A stretch of DNA of 47,563 nucleotides from Ignavibacteriota bacterium (GTDB lineage Bacteria > Bacteroidota > Ignavibacteria > Kapaibacteriales > UBA2268), in contig JAGQWJ010000023.1 of the NCBI GenBank assembly GCA_020437395.1, positions 1 to 47,563 on the forward strand, written 5' to 3'. Under the pieces are notes generated by a model. The model searched no databases, was not told where the DNA came from, and saw only the letters and a list, made by a program, of their open reading frames with translations. This document shows, in pieces, positions 1 to 15,493 of the stretch; the first letter of the stretch is position 1; every line of letters begins with the position of its first letter. Position numbers and translations under genes: made by a program.

Positions 1-17
1 ATAGGGAAACCAAAAGC

Positions 18-3000
18 ATGAAATATTCTTCGGCATTCAAATTTAATTTAATTTATATAATAAGAATCAATGACAAAGAGCATAAGGGTTGTCTGAAAAT
101 AGGAGAGGCAACAGCTGAGAATATTACTGACTTAGGTATAAAGCCGAATAGTAAACTGCTAAATGATGCTGCAAAGAAAAGGGTAAATAGTTACACGCAA
201 ACAGCAGGAATTAAATACGAATTGCTACATACAGAAATAACAGCATATGGAAAAAAAGGTAAAATTGAAGGTTTTAACGACAAGGAAGTTCACAAGGTAT
301 TAGAACGTTCTGGGATAAAAAAGAAAGTTTTTGACATTGATGGAAAAGCCAATGAGTGGTTTGTTACTGATTTAGAAACTGCCACAAAAGCTATCAAAGC
401 AGTAAAAGATGGAAAAGATTCGTTAACTAAAAGCCAAATAACAAAAGGGCAAAACCCTATAATTTTCAGACCTGAGCAAGATGATGCTATAAAGAAAACT
501 GTTAAGCATTTCAACAAAAAGAATAATAACGATATGCTTTGGTTTGCCAAAATGAGATTCGGTAAAACTCTTTCGGCACTTGAAGTAGTAAAACGTCAAA
601 AGTTCAAACGTACTCTTATAATTACTCACCGCCCCGTAGTTGATGGAGGGTGGTTCGAAGATTTTGGTAAAATATTCTATGATTCACCTGAGTATAATTA
701 TGGTTCTAAAGGAAAAGGCGGTACTTTTAGTAAATTAGAAAAAATTGCTAAAAAGAAAAAGAATGAAAAATACATTTACTTTGCCTCAATCCAAGACCTG
801 CGTGGGTCTGCAATAGTTGGTGGTAACTTCAATAAAAATGATGAATTGCTCAATAATAATTGGGACTTTATTATAATAGATGAAGCTCACGAAGGAACAC
901 AAACGGAAATAGGAAAAGATTTACTTAAGTATGTAAGAAAGGTCGAAACCAAGGTACTTCACTTATCGGGTACTCCGTACAACCTGCTTGACAATTACAA
1001 AGAAGATCAAATATTCGTTTGGGACTATGTAATGGAGCAAAAAGCAAAACGAGATTGGGAAATAAACCATCCTGGCGACCCTAATCCTTACGCTTCACTC
1101 CCTAAGCTCAATATATATACATTCAATCTTGGAAAATTACTTAGTAACTATTCAGATGAAGAAGTCGCATTCAATTTTCGTGAGTTTTTCAGAGTAAAAG
1201 CTGATGGAAAGTTTATTCACGAAAAGGACGTGAAATCATTTTTAAATCTTATTTGTAAAAAAGATAAATCGAGCAACTATCCATACTCAACTGAAGAATA
1301 TAGAGATATACTTAGGCACTCGCTTTGGATGGTGCCGGGTGTAAAAGAAGCAAAGGCACTAAGTAAACTACTGAAATCACACCCTGTTTTTGGTAAGTTC
1401 AATATTGTGAATGTGGCGGGAGATGGTGATGAGGAGGAAGAAGAAAGAGAAGCACTGAAGAAAGTGGAGAAAGCAATAAGCGACAACCCATTAGACACTT
1501 ATAGCATAACTTTGTCATGCGGTCGATTGACTACTGGAGTAACAGTAAAAGCTTGGACAGCTGTGTTTATGCTTTCTGGGAACTATAACACTTCAGCAGC
1601 TATGTATATGCAAACTATATTCAGAGCTCAAACTCCCGCTACAATAGGTGGTAAAGTAAAGGAAAATTGTTTTGTCTTTGATTTTGCTCCTGACAGAACT
1701 CTCAAAGTTGTGGCAGAAGCAGTTACGTCAGGCAAGAAAAAAGGCGATGAGAAAATAAAAATTGGTGAGTTCCTCAACTTCTGCCCAATTGTAGCTAAAG
1801 ATGGCTCGCGCATGACCACATACAACGTTGACCGCATGTTAGAGGAACTGAAGAAAGCATACATAGAAAGAGTAGTTAATACAGGATTCGAAGATACTCA
1901 TCTATACGACAAAAAGGGATTGCTCAAACTAACTAAGGTCGATTTAGAAAAATTCAATTCCCTACAAAAAATTATTGGCACTACTAAGGCAATGCCCAAA
2001 ACGAATAAAATAGACGTGAACAAACAGGGATTGACTAAGCAGGAGTTCGAGCAAGTTGAGAAAGCAAAGAAAAAACCTAAAAAAGACCTCACTGCCAAAG
2101 AGAAAAAACTTTTAGAAAAGTACAATCAAGAAAAGAAAAAACGCGACACCGCAATCTCTATTTTGCGTGGTATTTCCATTCGTATGCCTCTTATGCTCTA
2201 TGGTGCCGATGTAACCAACGAAGACAAAGAAATTGATATTGATAATTTCACGAATTTAGTCGATGATACTTCGTGGGAAGAGTTTATGCCCAAAGGTGTA
2301 ACTAAGAAAATGTTCGGAGACTTCAAAAAATACTACGACCCAGATATATTCAGGGCTGCGGGCAAAAGAATTAGGGCTATGGCTAAAGCAGCAGACGAAC
2401 TGACCGTTGAGGAAAGAATAGAGCGAATCACTAATATATTCAGCACATTCAGAAACCCAGATAAGGAAACAGTGCTAACGCCGTGGCGTGTTGTCAATAT
2501 GCACTTGGGCGATTGTTTGGGTGGGTTTAGCTTTTTGGATAAATCTCGCGAATATACTATTTCTGACCCTCACTACATTAACAACGGAAAAGTAACCGAA
2601 ACGGTTTTTAACAGTAACGCCCGTATATTAGAAATTAACTCCAAATCGGGACTTTATCCTTTGTATGTGGCTTACTCAATTTTTCGTAACTTGACTAGCA
2701 AAGGTACTAAAACGATAAACTTAACCGTGGAACAACAACAGGGATTTTGGGACAAAGTAGTTGAAGAAAATATATTCGTAATCTCGAAAACACCTATGGC
2801 AAAGGCAATTACTATGCGGACATTGGTGGGTTTCAGAAAAGCGAAAACTAATATACAGTACGTAGAAAATATAGTAGAGCAAATAACTAACGAACCAGAT
2901 AAGTTCGTCAAAAAAGTAAAAGATGCAAAATCATTTTGGAAAATTAAAAATGGAAAAACTATGAATTTTGATGCTATTGTCGGCAATCCGCCGTATCAAA

Positions 3001-3977
3001 TAACTACTGAGGGTACTAGTGATAAACCTGTTTACCATTTGTTTATGGATATTGCATTTAAAATATCAGATAGAGTCTCGTTTATAACACCAGGCCGGTA
3101 TTTATTTAATGCGGGAAAAACTCCTAAAGAATGGAACAACAAAATCTTGAGCGACAAGCATTTTAAAGTTATATGGTATGAAAGTGATAGTACTAAAGTA
3201 TTTCCAAGTGTTGATATAAAAGGCGGTGTAGCTGTAACATTCAGAGATGCTACTCAAAAATTTGGCTCATTAGGAGTATTTACACAGTATAATGAACTCA
3301 GTTCAATAGCCAATAAAGTCTATGACTTGAAGGGCTTTAATTCGTTAAGCGATATTATTTTTACCCAAAATAAATTTAATCTTAATGCGGTTTATAAAGA
3401 CTTTCCAAGATTTAGAAAAGTTATAGGTAGTAATGGAAAGGAAAAAAGATTAACAACTTCCATTTTTGAACAAATTGATATTTTTAAAAATAAACCTTAC
3501 AACGGTAATTCTGTAAAAATTTTAGGATTAATTAATAATAAAAGAGTTAGCCGTTATATTTCAGAAAAATACTTAGATAAACATGAGAACTTAATGAATT
3601 TCAAAGTACTTTTACCAAAAAGTAATGGTACAGGTAAATTAGGAGAAGAATTATCTTCTCCACATATAAGTAATAGAATGTCTGGATTTACTCAATCATT
3701 TATAAGTATTGGTAATTTTAAAACTGAGCAAGAAGCAAATTCATGTCTAAAGTATATTAAAACTAAATTTTCAAGAACTTTATTAGGAGTATTGAAAGTA
3801 ACACAAGACAATAATAAAGATGTTTGGCAATTCGTCCCTCTCCAAGACTTCACCAACAAATCGGACATAGATTGGAGCAAATCCGTAGAGGAAATAGACC
3901 ACCAGCTATACAAAAAATACGAACTAAGCAAGGACGAAATCGTCTTCATCGAAAAGATGATAAAACCGATGAAATAA
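18..3977 (+). CDS. Single-chain restriction-modification enzyme: GIY-YIG-like nuclease, SF2 helicase, N6-adenine methylase
   Basis: Probably an ATP-dependent restriction-modification protein that cuts and methylates DNA from one polypeptide. Residues about 10-120 fit a T5orf172/GIY-YIG-like nuclease: Y13, K27-I-G29, R55, E90-V-H92 and E113-W-F115. An SF2 helicase core follows, with an atypical Walker A (FAKMRFGKT, near 173-184), a DEAH box at 288-291, and motif V/VI-like stretches near 502-540 (LTTGVTVKAW, QTIFRAQ). A charged Lys-rich linker lies near 680-710. The methylase half has a motif I-like segment near 868-885 (ILEINSKSGLYPLY) and motif IV NPPY at 990-993. The roughly 300 C-terminal residues probably form the target recognition domain. 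The start has AGGG upstream and the nuclease motif begins right after it, but the frame stays open to the window edge, so a longer N-terminus is possible. No separate specificity subunit is visible. The domain reading is from motifs; the cut mode is inference. Confidence 0.85.
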   Translation: MKYSSAFKFNLIYIIRINDKEHKGCLKIGEATAENITDLGIKPNSKLLNDAAKKRVNSYTQTAGIKYELLHTEITAYGKKGKIEGFNDKEVHKVLERSGIKKKVFDIDGKANEWFVTDLETATKAIKAVKDGKDSLTKSQITKGQNPIIFRPEQDDAIKKTVKHFNKKNNNDMLWFAKMRFGKTLSALEVVKRQKFKRTLIITHRPVVDGGWFEDFGKIFYDSPEYNYGSKGKGGTFSKLEKIAKKKKNEKYIYFASIQDLRGSAIVGGNFNKNDELLNNNWDFIIIDEAHEGTQTEIGKDLLKYVRKVETKVLHLSGTPYNLLDNYKEDQIFVWDYVMEQKAKRDWEINHPGDPNPYASLPKLNIYTFNLGKLLSNYSDEEVAFNFREFFRVKADGKFIHEKDVKSFLNLICKKDKSSNYPYSTEEYRDILRHSLWMVPGVKEAKALSKLLKSHPVFGKFNIVNVAGDGDEEEEEREALKKVEKAISDNPLDTYSITLSCGRLTTGVTVKAWTAVFMLSGNYNTSAAMYMQTIFRAQTPATIGGKVKENCFVFDFAPDRTLKVVAEAVTSGKKKGDEKIKIGEFLNFCPIVAKDGSRMTTYNVDRMLEELKKAYIERVVNTGFEDTHLYDKKGLLKLTKVDLEKFNSLQKIIGTTKAMPKTNKIDVNKQGLTKQEFEQVEKAKKKPKKDLTAKEKKLLEKYNQEKKKRDTAISILRGISIRMPLMLYGADVTNEDKEIDIDNFTNLVDDTSWEEFMPKGVTKKMFGDFKKYYDPDIFRAAGKRIRAMAKAADELTVEERIERITNIFSTFRNPDKETVLTPWRVVNMHLGDCLGGFSFLDKSREYTISDPHYINNGKVTETVFNSNARILEINSKSGLYPLYVAYSIFRNLTSKGTKTINLTVEQQQGFWDKVVEENIFVISKTPMAKAITMRTLVGFRKAKTNIQYVENIVEQITNEPDKFVKKVKDAKSFWKIKNGKTMNFDAIVGNPPYQITTEGTSDKPVYHLFMDIAFKISDRVSFITPGRYLFNAGKTPKEWNNKILSDKHFKVIWYESDSTKVFPSVDIKGGVAVTFRDATQKFGSLGVFTQYNELSSIANKVYDLKGFNSLSDIIFTQNKFNLNAVYKDFPRFRKVIGSNGKEKRLTTSIFEQIDIFKNKPYNGNSVKILGLINNKRVSRYISEKYLDKHENLMNFKVLLPKSNGTGKLGEELSSPHISNRMSGFTQSFISIGNFKTEQEANSCLKYIKTKFSRTLLGVLKVTQDNNKDVWQFVPLQDFTNKSDIDWSKSVEEIDHQLYKKYELSKDEIVFIEKMIKPMK

Positions 3978-5416: not shown

Positions 5417-6586
5417 CTATTTGTCGCCTTTTTCTAGCCAACTTCTGTAGTACTCTTCGTCTTCGCAATCATCCACATTATATGTCGGATAAAGCGCACC
5501 GAAAGTATCTAGCATAATAGCATATTCTTCTGTTTCTTTTACTCCAATTGATGCCTCAGTTTTGCCTGGTTGTGGGCCGTGTGGCAATCCTATTGGGTGC
5601 AATGTAATAGAGCCCTCTTCAACTCCAGTACGAGACATAAAATCGCCCTCAACGTAGTAAAGCATTTCAGCACTATCTACATTCGTATGGAAGTAAGGTG
5701 CAGCTATTGCATCTGGGTACCAATCGAAAGGACGTGGATTGAAGTTACATAGTACAAAATGAGCCGTATTATAAAGCAAATGAATTGGTGGTGGCAAGTG
5801 AATACGTCCTACTTTCGGATGATAATCACGAATATTGAAAGCCCATGGATAGTGATAGCCATCCCAACCAACTATGTCAAATGGGTGATAAGGATGTACG
5901 TATTCATACATCTTATTACCAGCTTTAAGTCTAATTATAAATTCGCCTTTCTCATCGTGTACTTCAAGTTCTGTTGGCACTTTGAAATCGCGTTCACAAT
6001 AAGGAGCATCTTCGGAGCACTGTCCATATTGATTTCTGTAGTGTTTAGGAATTTCAAAAGCAGAGTCCGACTCAACTATAAATAATTTATTATCCTTTAA
6101 GTCATCGAAAAACATTTGGTGAACTGTCCCCATTGGTATAACTATCTGGTCTCCTTGCACAAAATTAATCACACCGTAATCAGTTTTTAGCTTTCCACTT
6201 CCTCTATGAACAAATATGAACTCACTCGCGTAGGCATTCTTATAAAAATCTTTTGGGTTCTTATTCGGGTGAGCTGTGTAAACTATAACATGGTCATTGC
6301 GTAAATATGGAATCCTTGAATCAAAAAAATCCCCATCTTTTCGCAATTTCTCAGTATAAAAGTGAATGTGCTTAACAGGAGGATCTTTTCGTAATCGTAA
6401 GTCAATATCAGGCAACTCATTTATCCTCAGTACTTTCGTAGGGGGATGTATGTGATACTTATTACTATATACATCCGAAAATCCTTTTGTGCTTATTAAT
6501 TCTTCTGTGTAAAGACTTCCGTCTGGTTTTCTAAAGGCAGTGTGTTTAGGGCTTGGCATTATTCCAAGTTTATGATAAAACGGCAT
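5417..6586 (-). CDS. hmgA: Homogentisate 1,2-dioxygenase
   Basis: Opens the aromatic ring of homogentisate to give maleylacetoacetate in tyrosine/phenylalanine catabolism; a cytosolic Fe(II) enzyme. The N-terminus (YHKLGIMPSPKHTAFRKPDG) is typical of the family, and the iron-site region is intact, with candidate ligands H300, E307 (in SAEMLYYVEG) and H336 (in GLPHGPQPG). The 389-residue length is close to the shorter bacterial members. The ATG at 6586 matches the usual family start. No other homogentisate-pathway gene (hppD, maiA, fahA) is visible in the window; downstream neighbours are a membrane protein and a DUF58 protein with no known link to the pathway. Confidence 0.93.
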   Translation of the reverse strand: MPFYHKLGIMPSPKHTAFRKPDGSLYTEELISTKGFSDVYSNKYHIHPPTKVLRINELPDIDLRLRKDPPVKHIHFYTEKLRKDGDFFDSRIPYLRNDHVIVYTAHPNKNPKDFYKNAYASEFIFVHRGSGKLKTDYGVINFVQGDQIVIPMGTVHQMFFDDLKDNKLFIVESDSAFEIPKHYRNQYGQCSEDAPYCERDFKVPTELEVHDEKGEFIIRLKAGNKMYEYVHPYHPFDIVGWDGYHYPWAFNIRDYHPKVGRIHLPPPIHLLYNTAHFVLCNFNPRPFDWYPDAIAAPYFHTNVDSAEMLYYVEGDFMSRTGVEEGSITLHPIGLPHGPQPGKTEASIGVKETEEYAIMLDTFGALYPTYNVDDCEDEEYYRSWLEKGDK

Positions 6587-8241: not shown

Positions 8242-9843
8242 CTATATTTTAGGCGAATTTACCATCAATTCATTAAATTCTAACATTGGATCTTTCTTTC
8301 CGATACTTTCACCTAACCCAATTACATTAACAGTAATGTTGATAGTCTTACCGTGTTCCTTGAAATCCTCAATAATTTCTATTACATCAGGATGAATATT
8401 CTTAGTATTAGAAGCATCAATATCTAACCTTGTATTTTCTGGAATTTGGTCTAACGTTCTCATAATTCCAGCTTTATTCAAAAAGCTAACTTCTTCAGCT
8501 AACTTAAGAGTTAGATGTTTACCATTTGCGTTTATTTGCCCAATTTCATAAGGCGTTTTGTAGTTTTTCCAAAGGATTTGAACTATTGCAACTGCCATAC
8601 CAAGCCCAATGCCTATTAGCAAGTCCGTAAATACAATACCAAGGATAGTAACTACAAACGGAACAAATTCATTCAACCCTTTGGCATACATTTGCTTGAA
8701 TAGAGCTGGTTTTGCCAATTTATAACCAACAACAAATAGAACTGCTGCTAAGCTGGCAAGAGGAATAAGGTTCAGTATATTTGGAATTGCAATGGCACAG
8801 ACAAGAAGTAAAATACCGTGCATAATAGCAGAAGCTCTAGTTTTACCACCTGATTGTATATTAGCAGAACTACGTACAATTACTTGAGTTACTGGCAATC
8901 CACCTATTAGTCCTGACACTATATTTCCCACACCTTGAGCTGTCAACTCTCTGTTTGTAGGAGTAATTCTCTTTTGTGGATCGAGTTTGTCAGTTGCTTC
9001 TACACTCAAAAGTGTTTCTAAACTTGCTACAACTGCCAAAGTAAGAGCTACGGTATAGACAGCAGGGTTATTCCATTGACTAAAATCAGGCATAGTAAAT
9101 TGAGAGATAAATCCATCGAATGATTCTGCCACTGGAATACTCACTAATTGCTCTGGCATTAGCGCAAGACCTGGTATATCTTGGAATATTATACCAAGAG
9201 TAATACCAACTATTACAGCAACTAAGGGGCCTTGTATAAGCTTTAAAGATTTAATGTTTTTGATAAAAGGACGCTCCCAAAGTATTAGAATTGCCAATGA
9301 TACTGCAGCAATTATTAGTGCTCCCTCATTAATATGGGTAATCATGTTAAATATCTCACTAAATGTATTTTGTCCATCTTGTTGAACAAAGGCCATATCT
9401 CCTTCATAATCTGCATCATAACCAAAGGCATGGGGTATTTGCTTGAGAATTATTATTATCCCTATCCCAGAAAGCATACCCTTAATCACGGAAGTAGGGA
9501 AATAATACCCAATTACACCTGCTTTCAATATTCCTAATATTATTTGAAAAATACCTGCAAACACTACCGCTAAAAGAAATATATCAAATGCTCCCAAATC
9601 TTGGATTGCTACTAATACTATAACGGCTAGCCCCGCAGCAGGACCGCTTACTCCTAATGATGATTTACTAATTGACGCTACTACTATTCCACCAACTATT
9701 CCGGCTATAATACCTGAGAAAAGTGGTGCTCCCGATGCTAATGCTATTCCCAAACAAAGCGGAATTGCTACTAAAAGAACAACGATGCTTGAAGGGAAAT
9801 CACTTTTAAAATTCGATAAAAAATTATCGTTACTTGTTTTCAT
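8242..9843 (-). CDS. SulP family anion transporter with STAS domain
   Basis: Inner-membrane anion transporter of the SLC26/SulP family, about 533 residues. The first helices begin near residue 15 (SSIVVLLVAIPLCLGIALASG, a family hallmark), the sequence SKSSLGVSGPAAGLAV marks the substrate-binding re-entrant region, and a C-terminal STAS domain covers about 435-525 (LDIDASNTKNIHPDVIEIIEDF region). Members carry sulfate, bicarbonate or other anions; substrate cannot be set from sequence, and no carbonic anhydrase or sulfate-assimilation gene is adjacent. The ATG at 9843 is preferred; an in-frame GTG four codons upstream is possible. A strong hairpin terminator follows the stop. Confidence 0.88.
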   Translation of the reverse strand: MKTSNDNFLSNFKSDFPSSIVVLLVAIPLCLGIALASGAPLFSGIIAGIVGGIVVASISKSSLGVSGPAAGLAVIVLVAIQDLGAFDIFLLAVVFAGIFQIILGILKAGVIGYYFPTSVIKGMLSGIGIIIILKQIPHAFGYDADYEGDMAFVQQDGQNTFSEIFNMITHINEGALIIAAVSLAILILWERPFIKNIKSLKLIQGPLVAVIVGITLGIIFQDIPGLALMPEQLVSIPVAESFDGFISQFTMPDFSQWNNPAVYTVALTLAVVASLETLLSVEATDKLDPQKRITPTNRELTAQGVGNIVSGLIGGLPVTQVIVRSSANIQSGGKTRASAIMHGILLLVCAIAIPNILNLIPLASLAAVLFVVGYKLAKPALFKQMYAKGLNEFVPFVVTILGIVFTDLLIGIGLGMAVAIVQILWKNYKTPYEIGQINANGKHLTLKLAEEVSFLNKAGIMRTLDQIPENTRLDIDASNTKNIHPDVIEIIEDFKEHGKTINITVNVIGLGESIGKKDPMLEFNELMVNSPKI

Positions 9844-9959
9844 AACTATATACACTTTTTACTAACACTTACATATTTTGTGTAAGTGAATTAATAAATA
9901 CGACAACACAGTAATGTATAGTTACTGTTTGCCTTTTTAATAATAAACCGATACTTCAG

Positions 9960-10304
9960 TTAAGTAGTTGTAATTAGTGTATATTCGGGTGGTGGTGTAA
10001 AAACATCAGGGATGTAGTCCGAGTATTGTTTTAAACTATAAGTAATTGATGATAAATTGGTATTATAGTCTGATAGAAATTTGAAAAGCTCGTCTATAGA
10101 GCAGTAAGCTCCGAACTTGTTCTTCGAATTTGAGTTGTGTGTTTCGTTTTCTTCCTCATTAATTTCATTGATTGTTATATTGGCTCTAGCCAACATTTCT
10201 CCAAAATAAGGAAAAGTTGAAGTGGACACGAATAACAACAATCCAATCATAAAAAATGATCGGTATTTACTTTTTTTGTAAATATATTTAGTTATTCTTT
10301 TCAA
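9960..10304 (-). CDS. Small membrane-anchored or secreted protein, unknown
   Basis: Unrecognised protein of up to 114 residues. A very basic N-terminus (KRITKYIYKKSKYR) precedes one hydrophobic segment (about 17-33), then a polar, Asn/Glu-rich linker and a C-terminal part ending in a PPPEYTLITTT tail. The start is a TTG; the nearest ATG is at residue 19 inside the hydrophobic segment, so TTG is favoured because it keeps the positive signal region. It lies about 115 bases upstream of the SulP gene on the same strand and is divergent from the DEAD-box helicase. It could be a signal-anchored accessory protein, but nothing in the sequence names a role. Confidence 0.45.
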   Translation of the reverse strand: MKRITKYIYKKSKYRSFFMIGLLLFVSTSTFPYFGEMLARANITINEINEEENETHNSNSKNKFGAYCSIDELFKFLSDYNTNLSSITYSLKQYSDYIPDVFTPPPEYTLITTT

Positions 10305-10605
10305 ATTTGTTTCTGATTTTTAATAAATGAACAAGCATTATTCACAATATACGAAAAAATCATCAAACTTATTGATTGACAATTGAACTCTACAAAAAAA
10401 ATTTCGCATAAATTAAACATAGTATAAGACTCTAACTGATAGCCAAATAAATAATAACAACATAATTAGTATGGTTAGCAATAAAAAATAAAAAATCTGT
10501 CAAAGATTGTTAATAAGTCAATAAACGTCACTAATAACTATTAATTAGCATAATTATATAATTATACTTAGCTTTGTTTTTATTATTATTACACAGTGTA
10601 CTTTT
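10305..10605. other. 301-base AT-rich divergent intergenic region
   Basis: Separates the small anchored protein gene from the DEAD-box helicase gene. It is extremely AT-rich with many short A and T tracts, and holds no credible ORF or strong hairpin. It must carry promoters for both directions and could provide a long 5' leader for the helicase, as is common for cold-induced DEAD-box genes, but no specific element can be pointed to. Confidence 0.4.
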
Positions 10606-12090
10606 TTGACAAATTTTAAGCAACTTGGACTTTCAGAAAACTTACTGAAAGCCATCAATGAACTTGGGTTCAATTCTCCTACAGATATACAACAACAAGC
10701 AATTCCTAAACTTATAAAAGATGACAGAGATTTCATCGGTTTAGCACAAACAGGAACAGGTAAAACAGCTGCTTTCGGTTTACCTTTGTTGGAAAGAATA
10801 GACCCAGCAATGAAAGCAACCCAAGCACTAATATTAGCACCAACCCGCGAATTAGGGCAACAAATTGCTGAACAACTTGATATATATAGTAAATATCAAG
10901 AAAAGTTAAATGTTCTGGCTGTTTATGGTGGTGCCTCTATCACTAATCAGATGAGAGCGTTGAAGAGAACTCAGCACGCTATAATAGCTACTCCTGGTCG
11001 TTTATTAGATTTAATAAAGAGAAGGGCAGTAAACTTAGAAAGCGTACGATTCCTCGTATTAGACGAAGCAGATGAAATGCTAAATATGGGATTCAAAGAG
11101 GATTTGGACTTAATTCTAAGCTATACTCCAGAAGAAAAACTGACTTGGCTATTTTCCGCAACTATGCCAAAAGAAATTAAGAAGATTGTCAATAAGTATA
11201 TGGATAATCCTACTGAAGTTAGGATAAATTCTAAAGAACAGGTAAATGTTGATATAGAGCACCAATACGCATTGGTCAAAGCATCAGATAAAGCGGAAGC
11301 TCTATCAAGAATACTCGATATTAGCCCAGATATGAGAGGAGTTGTATTCTGCAGAACGAAAAATGAAACACAAGAATTAGCTGAGCTATTACTTAGACAA
11401 AACTACAAGGCAGACTCACTGCATGGTGATCTATCCCAAGCTCAACGAGACAGAGTAATGCGTAGATTTAAAAAGCATGAGTTGCATGTATTGATAGCTA
11501 CGGACGTTGCAGCAAGAGGAATAGACGTAAATGATTTAACACATGTTATTCACTATACTTTACCAGATGATAACTCTTACTACACGCACAGAAGTGGACG
11601 AACAGCAAGAGCGGGGAAAAAAGGTATTTCTTTGGCATTCGTAAGTGGAAGAGAGAAACATAGGATTAGAAAATTGGAATCTCAACTAGGAATTGAATTT
11701 GACCGTGCTTTCATACCAAACGCCAACGACATAGCTGAAATTAGAGTCGAAGATTGGTGTATGAAAGTACTTAATAAAGGTACGGCAGGTAAGGTAACTA
11801 AGAAGTTAAACCAAAAAGCGAACGATATATTCTTCCGTCTTTCAAAAGAAGAATTGATTGAAAAGCTTTTAGTAATAGAGCTAGAAAAGATAAAATCTGA
11901 TAGCGAAAAAGACCTCAATGATACGGAATCCAGAGGATATTCTGAAGGTAAAGGTGGCGGCGGTAGTCGTAGCGGAAGAAGACGTGGCGGCGGCGGCGGA
12001 AAAGGTGGTAAAAAGTCATTCGGTAATTTCAACAAGAAAGGTGGCGGCGGAAAAGGCGGCAAAAAAGCTCACACAAGAAGAAAAAGATAA
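10606..12090 (+). CDS. deaD: DEAD-box ATP-dependent RNA helicase with Gly/Lys/Arg-rich tail
   Basis: RNA helicase of the DeaD/CsdA-RhlE type, acting in ribosome assembly and mRNA turnover, often cold-induced. All core motifs are present: AQTGTGKT (47-54), PTRELGQQ, TPGRLLD, DEAD (153-156), SAT, and HRSGRTARAG in the second RecA domain. A helical segment (VEDWCMKVLNKG and following) replaces the longer DbpA-type domain of E. coli DeaD. The last 50 residues are a Gly-rich basic tail with GGGG-S/R-x-RR and GGKGGKK repeats, likely binding RNA. The only start consistent with family alignment is TTG at 10606 (TNFKQLGLSENLLKA); no upstream ATG exists before an in-frame stop. Symbol is by family resemblance; rhlE is the alternative. 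A strong terminator follows. Confidence 0.9.
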   Translation: MTNFKQLGLSENLLKAINELGFNSPTDIQQQAIPKLIKDDRDFIGLAQTGTGKTAAFGLPLLERIDPAMKATQALILAPTRELGQQIAEQLDIYSKYQEKLNVLAVYGGASITNQMRALKRTQHAIIATPGRLLDLIKRRAVNLESVRFLVLDEADEMLNMGFKEDLDLILSYTPEEKLTWLFSATMPKEIKKIVNKYMDNPTEVRINSKEQVNVDIEHQYALVKASDKAEALSRILDISPDMRGVVFCRTKNETQELAELLLRQNYKADSLHGDLSQAQRDRVMRRFKKHELHVLIATDVAARGIDVNDLTHVIHYTLPDDNSYYTHRSGRTARAGKKGISLAFVSGREKHRIRKLESQLGIEFDRAFIPNANDIAEIRVEDWCMKVLNKGTAGKVTKKLNQKANDIFFRLSKEELIEKLLVIELEKIKSDSEKDLNDTESRGYSEGKGGGGSRSGRRRGGGGGKGGKKSFGNFNKKGGGGKGGKKAHTRRKR

Positions 12091-12102
12091 CAAATATCAT
12101 CA

Positions 12103-12132
12103 AAACCCAATCGAAGAGATTGGGTTTTTTAT
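12103..12132 (+). terminator. Rho-independent terminator of the DEAD-box helicase gene
   Basis: A 10-base-pair stem, AAACCCAATC / GATTGGGTTT, with a GAAGA loop, followed on the plus strand by a T run. It begins 12 bases after the helicase stop codon. The opposite strand has a shorter T run, so it may also help end the converging methyltransferase transcript. Confidence 0.9.
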
Positions 12133-12144
12133 TTTTTGATTATT

Positions 12145-12945
12145 TTATTTTTTCAGGCCCTCAAGAGCATAGACTAAGGGTAGCTTATCTTCGAAGTTTT
12201 TAATTCTATACTTTTTGGGTTCAAACTCTATCATATTTTTGAAGCAATTATACGGTGAATAGTCGTATTCATCTAGCGACCTGATTTGTATGCCATTATG
12301 TATCAAGCCATTTACAACCTCACTTATACTGTGGTTCCAACCCACTGTTGTTAACTCCAAATCTGCTTCTCGGTCAGCGTAAGTGCCAGTCTCAGTTTCA
12401 ACAATAGCTTCTTTTTTGAAGTAGCTATATTCGAATTTTGTGAAATCATTGTCATACATCCACACGAATGGGTGAAAATCCACAAAAATAAATCGACCGT
12501 TTGGCTTTAAGTATTTTGATATTAATCTAGCCCATTTATCCAAGTCAGGGAACCAACCAATAGTTCCATAACTAGTAAATACGATATCAAATTTCTCATC
12601 GAGATGATTATGTAGATCGTAGATGTCGCAGCAAATAAACTTTGAATTTAAACCCAATTCTTGATTAAGATGTCTAGCTTTCTCAATCGCAACATCAGAT
12701 AGATCTACCCCTGTTACCTCAGCACCCATCCTAGCAAGTGACAAAGTGTCTTGCCCAAAATGGCATTGAAAATGGAGAATTGACTTACCTTTTATATCCC
12801 CCAGCATTTCTAGCTCAATGGAATTCAATGAGGTTTCACCAGCAAGAAATCCTTTCATATTATAAAAGTCTGAGTTTACATGAGATTCAACTTTATTATT
12901 CCAAGCGTTTCGGTTTAGTTCTATGTATTCTTTGTTTGTGTTCAT
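12145..12945 (-). CDS. Class I SAM-dependent methyltransferase
   Basis: Soluble Rossmann-fold methyltransferase of 266 residues. Motif I has the variant form ILHFQCHFGQDTLSLAR near residue 56, followed by the acidic motif II (GVDLSD) and motif III (FICCDIYDL); this HFQCHFGQDT variant is typical of a widespread uncharacterised subfamily. The end (KYRIKNFEDKLPLVYALEGLK) also suits that subfamily. The substrate is unknown. The ATG at 12945 has TAGGAATAAAC upstream, a reasonable ribosome site. It follows the 165-residue membrane protein by 8 bases and probably shares its transcript. Confidence 0.8.
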   Translation of the reverse strand: MNTNKEYIELNRNAWNNKVESHVNSDFYNMKGFLAGETSLNSIELEMLGDIKGKSILHFQCHFGQDTLSLARMGAEVTGVDLSDVAIEKARHLNQELGLNSKFICCDIYDLHNHLDEKFDIVFTSYGTIGWFPDLDKWARLISKYLKPNGRFIFVDFHPFVWMYDNDFTKFEYSYFKKEAIVETETGTYADREADLELTTVGWNHSISEVVNGLIHNGIQIRSLDEYDYSPYNCFKNMIEFEPKKYRIKNFEDKLPLVYALEGLKK

Positions 12946-12953
12946 GTTTATTC

Positions 12954-13451
12954 CTACTCTATATGCACTCGTTCCTTTATGGCATCTTCGAAAAAGTGGT
13001 GGAGAGTAAACATTTGCTCAGCTCCAATTTTTTGTCCAAATTGAGCTATCAAATAGACTAAAAGTCCAGCGCCTAGTAATGAAGGTACTCCCATAGCAAG
13101 TAAACTTGTGTCATTATTCATCTGCCATTCCACTCCTCCCCAAATTAATATACCTGCTAGTAAAATAGAAATTGTTCCATAAGCAAATGCGAATAAAGTC
13201 CATACGCTCGATTTGGGGCTATAAAGACCACGTATTAATGTGCCTTTTTCATGTGGTTCCAACATCAAAGTTAGCTCTGGTGACCAATAGTGATTATTTT
13301 TGGGAGCAATACGCAGCTTTATCAATGAACTTGCAATTGTGCCATCAATATCAGCATCTTTTTCTAACAATTCTCTAAAATGCTCTTTATGTTCATCAAT
13401 TGTTCCTTTGCATATTTTTCTAAATCTAGGTCGAAGTTTAAAACTGCTCAT
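12954..13451 (-). CDS. Hypothetical two-helix membrane protein
   Basis: Unrecognised protein of 165 residues. The N-terminal ~80 residues are polar and look like a folded beta-rich domain (LRPRFRKICKGTIDEHKEHF; HYWSPELTLMLEP); two membrane helices follow at about 82-105 and 115-138, then a short amphipathic tail (FFEDAIKERVHIE). The ATG at 13451 is clear. It heads a two-gene minus-strand unit with the methyltransferase and is divergent from a T9SS cargo gene. No function can be assigned. Confidence 0.65.
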   Translation of the reverse strand: MSSFKLRPRFRKICKGTIDEHKEHFRELLEKDADIDGTIASSLIKLRIAPKNNHYWSPELTLMLEPHEKGTLIRGLYSPKSSVWTLFAFAYGTISILLAGILIWGGVEWQMNNDTSLLAMGVPSLLGAGLLVYLIAQFGQKIGAEQMFTLHHFFEDAIKERVHIE

Positions 13452-13562
13452 ATTTCCAAAAAATTAATGTATATTGAGCAGATAATTTAATCATAAATAA
13501 GTAATATTGGATTATTTATTTATGATTTGCTTTAAAAAAAAGCATTTTTATTTTTGAATATT

Positions 13563-13597
13563 ATCTTTTTTTTCTTGTATTTGAATATATATATATC
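13563..13597 (+). promoter_or_regulatory. Candidate promoter element shared by two secreted-protein genes
   Basis: The string TTTTTCTTGTATTT followed by an (AT)n tract lies 34 bases before the ATG at 13631 and recurs almost unchanged at 15656-15688, 44 bases before the ATG at 15732. Conservation amid otherwise different flanks, and equal placement relative to starts, suggests a shared promoter or activator site. Confidence 0.35.
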
Positions 13598-13630
13598 AAA
13601 GTCGAGTTTAAGAAGTAATTGGAAATCAGA

Positions 13631-15493
13631 ATGAAATTAAAACAATCTTTATTAATAATAATTGTATTCCTACTTTACAGTAATTCACTACTATCTGAAG
13701 ACCTTAGAGTGATATACCCCAACGGTGGTAATGATTTAATAGTTGACAGTGTAATAACTATAAAATGGGAAGCTACCGACCCCAATGTACCAGTTACTAT
13801 CGAATATAGTTTCGACTATGGGGTTGCTTGGAACATTATAGAAGATGAGTATATTGGCTCCGAACTAGAATGGAAAGTACCCCCAGTAGTTAGTAAAGAA
13901 TGCTTAATTAAAGTTTATAGCGCCTTTAGTGCTAGTGATATAGTTTGGCAAAAGTCTTATGGCGGTAAAAAGCAAGAACACGCACATGAGATAAAAAAAA
14001 CAGATGATGGTGGATACATTGTCGCAGGCTTTATTACATCTCTAAACGATGATGTGGGAGGATTAGAGCAACAAAGCGATTTTTGGATACTCAAGTTAGA
14101 TGAATTGGGTGAGAAAGAATGGGAAAAAGTGTATGGTGGTAGTAACGGAGACAAACCAACTTCGATACATCAGTTACCTGATGGTGGTTACATAGTTGCT
14201 GGTTATACAACATCTACCGACGGTGACTTAAGTTATAGGACTGATTATGGGTTTGTAACTTGGGTTGTTCGACTTGATAAACTCGGGAATATGATTTGGA
14301 ATAAAATATATGGTACTAACTCTATAGACTTTTCAAGAACTCTAGAGTTAACTGATGATGGTGGTTTTATTATTTGGGGAGTAACTGATCCCAAAAAGAA
14401 TAGTAATGGGACTTTAGATTATTCAGATTATCACATATTGAAGTTAGATGAAGAAGGTACTATAGAGTGGGAAAAAATATATGGTGGAGGCAATATAGAC
14501 AATGTTTATTCTATAATACAAACCGATGACAAGGGGTATATAGTTACCGGCTACACTGATGACAGTGATGTTGGGAACAACAATGGTAGCTATGTGTTAT
14601 GGGTACTCAAACTATACAATAATGGTGAAATTGAATGGGAAAAGTCCTATGGTGGAACCAATGACGACTATGCTAATGGTATAATACAAACCACTGTTGG
14701 TGGCTATATAATACTTAGTAGTTCTTTTTCAAGAGATGGTGATATATCAAATTATAATGGGAGTAAAGATATACTAGTTATTAAAATTTCAAGCAATGGA
14801 TTAGTTGAATGGTCAAAAAATTACGGGGGGAGTAATATCGATATACCTTTTTCAATAAAAGAAACTAAAGAGGGAAATTTTGTGATAGCCGGTTGTACTC
14901 AATCTAACGATGGAGATATTGAATCATTCAAAGGTATTGTGGATGCATGGACATTTGAAATAGACAATATGGGCAAGCTGATATGGAATAAATCCTTTGG
15001 TGGGTCGGGTAGTGAGTACTTCTATTCTTTAGAACTAGCAGAAGACGGAGATATTGTATTTGCTGGATTTACTAATTCTAGTGACGGAGATGTTGTTAGA
15101 GAATATCAATATGATGATATTTGGATAGTGAAATATAATCCATACAAGAAAGTATTTTTATCAGATCAATCCGACTCATTATTTTCAATCAGATGGTATG
15201 ATATTAAAGATGATGATGATGAAGTGTCTGAAGATAAATTTCACTTCACTGTTTTACCAAACGTTACATCAACAGATGTTGCCGTTTCTTTGTACTTAGA
15301 AACAGAACAAATTATAACTTTAGAATTATTCGATAATATTGGCAGAAGAATGGAGACGATACTATCGGGCGTTCAACCGTTTGGTTTACTAAATATCAAT
15401 CTTGATTTGAGCCCATATTCATCAGGTAGATACTACTTAAGACTAATCACACCCAAATTTAACATTACTAAAAAAATTGAACTCTTGAACTAA
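13631..15493 (+). CDS. T9SS cargo protein: Ig-like domain with inserted seven-repeat propeller, type A sorting domain
   Basis: Secreted surface protein of about 620 residues. A signal peptide (MKLKQSLLIIIVFLLYSNSLLS) is followed by an Ig-like domain (VIYPNGGNDLIVDS ... TIKWEA ... VEYS-like strands, about 24-102). Seven repeats of about 57 residues follow (about 104-506), each with W-x-K-x-[YF]-GG and a DGGYIVAG-like strand, predicting a seven-bladed beta-propeller. A short segment, SDQSDSLFSIRW, looks like the missing last strand of the Ig-like domain. The C-terminal ~85 residues form a T9SS type A sorting domain (HFTVLPNV ... GRRMETILSG ... GRYYLRLIT ... KKIELLN). The ATG at 13631 is used because the TTG four codons earlier would only add residues before a good signal. 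Ligand unknown. Confidence 0.8.
   Translation: MKLKQSLLIIIVFLLYSNSLLSEDLRVIYPNGGNDLIVDSVITIKWEATDPNVPVTIEYSFDYGVAWNIIEDEYIGSELEWKVPPVVSKECLIKVYSAFSASDIVWQKSYGGKKQEHAHEIKKTDDGGYIVAGFITSLNDDVGGLEQQSDFWILKLDELGEKEWEKVYGGSNGDKPTSIHQLPDGGYIVAGYTTSTDGDLSYRTDYGFVTWVVRLDKLGNMIWNKIYGTNSIDFSRTLELTDDGGFIIWGVTDPKKNSNGTLDYSDYHILKLDEEGTIEWEKIYGGGNIDNVYSIIQTDDKGYIVTGYTDDSDVGNNNGSYVLWVLKLYNNGEIEWEKSYGGTNDDYANGIIQTTVGGYIILSSSFSRDGDISNYNGSKDILVIKISSNGLVEWSKNYGGSNIDIPFSIKETKEGNFVIAGCTQSNDGDIESFKGIVDAWTFEIDNMGKLIWNKSFGGSGSEYFYSLELAEDGDIVFAGFTNSSDGDVVREYQYDDIWIVKYNPYKKVFLSDQSDSLFSIRWYDIKDDDDEVSEDKFHFTVLPNVTSTDVAVSLYLETEQIITLELFDNIGRRMETILSGVQPFGLLNINLDLSPYSSGRYYLRLITPKFNITKKIELLN
13939..15147 (+). repeat. Seven protein-coding repeats of about 171-177 bases
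   Basis: Within the secreted protein gene, units begin near 13939, 14113, 14290, 14461, 14629, 14803 and 14978. Each encodes [IV]-x-W-x-K-x-[YF]-G-G, then about 10 residues, then a D-G-G-Y-I-V-A-G-like strand. DNA is well diverged between units, so this is an old protein repeat and not a recent tandem array. Confidence 0.8.

Follow-up and report, generated by a model that had tools for sequence, protein, structure and literature searches.

Type ISP restriction enzymes, such as LlaBIII and LlaGI, consist of one long chain, and an N-terminal Mrr-like nuclease of the PD-(D/E)XK type belongs to their definition (PMC3874165). GIY-YIG domains are also present in restriction proteins, but the known GIY-YIG restriction endonucleases are ATP-independent, and in the HsdR case a single GIY-YIG insertion lies beside an existing PD-(D/E)XK domain (PMC1564403). 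In a further putative system, DnmA-YeeB-YeeC, an N6-methyladenine methyltransferase is combined with a superfamily 2 (SF2) helicase and a T5orf172/GIY-YIG protein (PMC9973331, PMC7261158). The stretch of DNA analysed here (the window, 47,563 nucleotides of contig JAGQWJ010000023.1 from an Ignavibacteriota bacterium) begins with a gene for a 1319-residue protein, the big protein, in which a nuclease, an SF2 motor and an adenine methyltransferase are joined. We read it, with a probability of about 0.7, as the large subunit of a two-gene, ATP-dependent restriction-modification (R-M) system; it belongs to a widespread and uncharacterised family of two-subunit, motor-driven R-M systems, as far as function can be told from what was computed, i.e., the domains and their order, the conserved residues, the partner gene and the exchange of target-recognition domains (TRDs). 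From these we infer translocation, cleavage, methylation, complex formation and phage restriction.

The big gene is an intact open reading frame (ORF) that begins 17 bp from the contig start (contig C52; genome 2.94 Mb, assigned to the Bacteroidota group by its kinship and hits). The ATG at position 18 is its likely start, because the alignments of the relatives begin at residue 1 and several of them have an in-frame stop just 2-4 codons upstream. When the whole 1319-residue chain was compared with Pfam, matches were obtained to ResIII (residues 150-321, E 2.4e-16), Eco57I (917-1062, E 1.2e-28) and T5orf172 (53-129, E 0.1). A genome scan yielded 80 relatives with 46-68% identity, mostly full length, which places the architecture far beyond chance. 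With the reading frame intact and these matches in hand, the original prediction of a single chain combining a T5orf172-like nuclease, an SF2 helicase and an Eco57I-like methyltransferase was borne out. The features at the start of the window are:

1..21, forward strand: probable last codons (IGKPKA, then TGA, read in frame 1) of the truncated upstream methyltransferase-like partner gene; this TGA and the big-gene ATG share bases (ATGA), a junction common to 15 relatives
18..3977, forward strand: big subunit of 1319 amino acids, with GIY-YIG nuclease, SF2 motor, coupler, gamma-class methyltransferase and TRD
42..407, forward strand: predicted GIY-YIG (T5orf172/MUG113-like) nuclease domain, residues 9-130, with Y13, K27, G29, R55, H92 and E113
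465..1817, forward strand: SF2 motor, residues 150-600, with motif I AKMRFGKT (177-184), DEAH (288-291), SGTP (317-320), LTTGVT (504-509) and QTIFRAQ (532-538)
1875..2462, forward strand: helical coupler, residues ~620-815, boundaries approximate
2463..3257, forward strand: gamma-class N6-adenine methyltransferase, residues ~816-1080, with TP motif (818-828), motif I variant ILEINSKSGLYPL (870-882) and NPPY (990-993)
3270..3974, forward strand: TRD, residues ~1085-1319, hypervariable, with exchange among relatives that otherwise resemble one another

The evidence for a second subunit comes from the relatives. By clustering, 78 of 94 loci have a gene of ~330 amino acids beside the big gene; it almost always lies immediately upstream, where it overlaps or touches the big-gene start. 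By profile, the partner was recognised strongly in 88 and weakly in 5 of 98 loci, the remainder being mostly cut by sequence ends, and it is annotated beside the big gene on plasmids of Lactococcus, Enterococcus and Lysinibacillus. The original prediction of an "all-in-one" enzyme is therefore probably wrong, as a methyltransferase-like gene is adjacent at 93 of 98 loci and the first 21 bases of the window resemble the end of one. A search of the other contigs of the genome did not find the partner elsewhere, although such a null search is no proof of absence; together with the ATGA junction at the window start, this makes it most likely that the window's partner fell into the assembly gap at the contig start. 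At three loci (L004, L020 and L029) the gap between the partner and the big gene measures about 0.9-1.2 kb, as if accessory genes insert at the junction; by sequence resemblance, the gene in between is ORF6N/RhuM-like in L004 and DUF1016/YhcG-like in L029.

What the small chain lacks is what the large one has, and vice versa. The partner possesses motif X (EVFTP) and a motif-I-like LEIACGEAPYITSRYD of canonical appearance, and is too short to hold a TRD of its own, while [NDS]PP[YFW] was found in none of 106 partners; ISWN(V/L/I)WQMD or FSEW stands at the NPPY position. The big subunits, by contrast, have NPPY in 76 of 76, and their motif I reads EINSK(S/T)GLYPL, with slight variation; all 76 have K(S/T)G, with a lysine at the first glycine position. 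In split relatives, which are encoded by three genes (a small methyltransferase-like protein, an Eco57I methyltransferase of ~500 amino acids and a GIY-YIG-helicase of ~840 amino acids), motif I of the methyltransferase is DPxxK(S/T)G(V/I)FLR in 9/9. This reciprocal pattern makes a heteromeric methyltransferase attractive but unproven, and an inactive small chain that acts as a scaffold would fit just as well. If true, the complementary motif loss would mean that a bacterial adenine methyltransferase can be split or paired.

The target-recognition part of the large chain evolves differently from the rest. Mean identity is 34% in the C-terminal region (1085-1319) vs 69% in the motor, and in two pairs of loci (L025/L026 and L048/L059) the motors are 98% identical, with TRDs at 31-33% and small subunits at 84-89%. 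The TRD thus appears to be an exchangeable specificity module and the small subunit a part of the core, which argues against a companion methyltransferase for the other strand; likewise, partner divergence correlates with that of the motor (r 0.89) and not with that of the TRD (0.32). Two loci, L042 (Capnocytophaga bilenii) and L112 (an IMG/VR contig), have spare NPPY-TRD cassettes downstream in reverse orientation, with 33-37-bp inverted repeats (97%) that fall on the cassettes' NPPY codons and match the codon phase, in L042 between big gene and cassette. A tyrosine recombinase gene stands beside each cassette, and relatives of this recombinase were found adjoining a big gene at these two loci only. 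By sequence, the arrangement looks like an invertible specificity switch. In L042 (10932-14939) the 37-bp repeats are in frame; one is at the NPPY codons of the big gene, the other at those of a silent cassette in reverse orientation (13069-14100). The tyrosine recombinase lies alongside at 14091-14939, and the active and silent halves are 37% identical. L112 (8406-12556) has two spare cassettes (9499-10545, forward; 10593-11702, reverse) and its tyrosine recombinase at 11702-12556. Taken with the reciprocal motifs, a new R-M class could be proposed, tentatively and with more doubt than belief, in which an obligate heteromeric adenine methyltransferase (the big chain with NPPY and a degenerate S-adenosylmethionine (SAM) motif, KSG for GxG; the small chain supplying or stabilising SAM binding, without NPPY) would be joined to a translocation-triggered GIY-YIG nuclease and, in some members, to recombinase-inverted specificity at the NPPY codons.

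The N-terminal nuclease was followed in an alignment of 91 relatives, in which K27, G29, R55 and E113 never vary and Y13 is kept in 99%; T62, D88, L95 and W114 are also invariant. The GIY-box tyrosine (Y13) and the YIG-box glycine (G29) are retained, and the YIG-box tyrosine is replaced by the invariant K27. Among the catalytic residues that had been proposed, Y13, R55 and E113 are conserved, whereas position 90 varies (E 39%, Q 35%, D 21%). Residues 1-148, scanned alone, scored 20.5 bits against T5orf172 (cut-off 20), and this profile was matched by 43/45 relatives (E<=1; best E 3e-10, rounded from 3.2e-10) and MUG113 by 24/45 (best E 2e-11). In an AlphaFold2 model of the nuclease (pLDDT, the predicted local distance difference test, 88.6), Y13 is on the first strand (9-16), G29 on the second (26-33) and R55 on the helix after them (46-60). 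The conserved residues, the profile score and these placements uphold the GIY-YIG/T5orf172-like assignment, and the structure prediction that had been recommended for this region is compatible with it: the best solved neighbours in VIA include the GIY-YIG nucleases Slx1 (Z 4.8 and 4.5) and HIGLE (Z 4.2), which rank above most of the unrelated rows, yet with low scores. Residues ~9-130 are, judging by the sequence, a GIY-YIG nuclease domain of the T5orf172/MUG113 type. The split relatives have a short YxG-to-Arg spacing of about 10 residues, close to that of I-TevI. The idea that the nuclease type was exchanged among relatives was dropped, as the split and nearby fused forms all keep GIY-YIG. 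In the most distant fused branch (L124-L126) a GIY-YIG-like N-terminus is seen by eye (IYAF..YLKVG..R..EFF), with a profile score that is not significant. Five Lactobacillales-type relatives (L111, L064, L119, L136 and L137) have an extra helical domain of ~150 amino acids before the GIY-YIG domain, like some HsdR proteins, with a weak DUF4145 match in that of L111.

The remainder of the chain (residues 145-1319) was modelled with a pLDDT of 81.6 and a predicted template-modelling score (pTM) of 0.60, and Foldseek matched this model over its full length to LlaBIII (E 1.8e-22) and LlaGI (E 2.1e-16), then to CamA, BrxX and RadD. In VIA the motor matched RadD (Z 21) and the methyltransferase-TRD half matched CamA (Z 17.6); the adenine methyltransferases CamA and BrxX (PglX) share the fold of this half, but their chains include neither a nuclease nor a motor. 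Motifs I, II, III, V and VI of the SF2 motor are invariant among relatives. The order of nuclease, SF2 translocase, coupler, gamma-class methyltransferase and TRD is that of LlaBIII and LlaGI, and this, with the best whole-chain fold match, is what would favor a true single-chain type ISP enzyme in which Mrr was simply replaced by GIY-YIG, as originally pictured. We nevertheless consider this very unlikely. A control search with Mrr_cat_2 in the same phylum recovered true ISP enzymes of 1604-1635 amino acids with Mrr at the N-terminus, and with phmmer these gave no match to the big protein at E<10; profile-profile similarity is confined to the first RecA lobe (92.5%), and the N-termini do not align by profile (probability 0.2%). 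The partner gene, conserved in the family of the big protein, is absent from every ISP locus examined, and nuclease divergence correlates with that of the motor (r 0.94), hence no sign of recent nuclease swapping. The big protein is thus a motor-methyltransferase chain of ISP-like fold without Mrr, as had been anticipated; to judge from these comparisons it is ISP-like in its working, and not an ISP enzyme with a recently swapped nuclease. The same genome also has a weak Mrr_cat_2 match in a 911-amino-acid ORF (G000:C106:491-736), possibly a second ATP-dependent restriction enzyme.

In PADLOC the pair is labelled REase_MTase_IIG (Type IIG) and MTase_II, and PDLC03626 and PDLC03390/PDLC03375 describe the same broad family: the match of the window protein to PDLC03626 is partial (139 bits) and that of the distant fused relative L124 full-length (1180 bits), and PDLC03390 recognises the partner at E 1e-115. 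These labels, and the nuclease, methyltransferase and TRD in one chain, would suit a Type IIG enzyme with a companion methyltransferase for the opposite strand, as in Eco57I, the motor being accessory. This is improbable, as a second sequence-specific methyltransferase should follow the TRD, and the partner stays 84-89% identical where the TRD falls to 31-33%; the partner also has neither the NPPY-type motif nor room for a TRD, and a conserved SF2 motor is foreign to Type IIG. The label is silent on the GIY-YIG nuclease, the motor and the pairing. Of about the same low probability is that restriction was lost or never the role, and that a methyltransferase complex with a vestigial nuclease-motor regulates genes, the role suggested for B. 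subtilis DnmA-YeeB-YeeC, which gave no plasmid restriction and no protection against three phages, although its V. crassostreae homologues affect phage sensitivity (PMC7261158, PMC9973331). Against this stand the catalytic positions of nuclease and motor, invariant across several phyla, the frequency of the gene on plasmids, and TRDs exchanged as in restriction systems. DnmA-YeeB-YeeC itself is paralleled by the three-gene split relatives in architecture; it consists of three separate proteins with an MmeI-like methyltransferase and no reported methyltransferase-like small subunit, whereas the split relatives keep nuclease and helicase fused and the methyltransferase separate, and in the big protein all three are joined. 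Finally, the N-terminal domain might have a GIY-YIG fold that binds DNA without cutting it, since T5orf172 domains are largely uncharacterised and the fold scores are weak; here too we would give little credence, because no positions of the domain are better conserved than those of Tyr, Gly, Arg and Glu, and E113-W114 is invariant.

The two-subunit restriction reading has its own difficulties, beginning with the B. subtilis results. Only six codons of the window's own partner are visible, and the downstream neighbourhood in the window is not a defence island. No significant neighbour came up in Foldseek for the nuclease model by itself, and the VIA scores of the fold are low (Z under 5), so that the GIY-YIG call rests on sequence, with the fold as support. 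In the open-licence literature searched, no measured activity of any family member was found. The same literature yielded no experimental study of the nuclease-motor-methyltransferase architecture, so the description of it as distinct and little described holds in that respect, but not entirely, given the PADLOC models and the published DnmA-YeeB-YeeC system (PMC9973331, PMC7261158).

As a two-subunit system, the enzyme would work as follows. The TRD would bind an asymmetric site, at which the gamma-class methyltransferase, together with the small methyltransferase-like partner, would methylate adenine. An unmethylated site would instead set the SF2 motor, like that of type ISP enzymes, to pump the adjoining double-stranded DNA, and upon stalling or collision of the motor the N-terminal GIY-YIG domain (Y13, R55, E113 and one metal) would nick the DNA, two nicks making a break. 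The small partner would be a structural or regulatory core subunit rather than a second sequence-specific methyltransferase.

The hosts of the relatives include Bacteroidota, Fibrobacter, Spirochaetes, Clostridia, Lentisphaeria, Akkermansia, Coriobacteriaceae and Lactobacillales. The big protein matched 87 plasmid records, chiefly of Enterococcus and Lactococcus, and full-length phage matches were rare. Sequence searches of the PDB gave no match for the whole protein, A1 and A2, and chance matches only for A3. Elsewhere in the window, at 5417-6586 on the reverse strand, a 389-amino-acid protein has weak homogentisate 1,2-dioxygenase-like cupin matches.

Type ISP enzymes translocate at the expense of ATP and cleave DNA with head-to-head sites. 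How they do so is understood only for Mrr nucleases, which nick repeatedly at the collision of two motors; a single-metal GIY-YIG nuclease on a motor of this kind would test whether nuclease chemistry matters to translocation-triggered cutting. Being present in several phyla and on plasmids of lactic acid bacteria, Enterococcus and Staphylococcus, the family, which is presently filed under a misleading label, is likely a common and unstudied barrier to DNA transfer.

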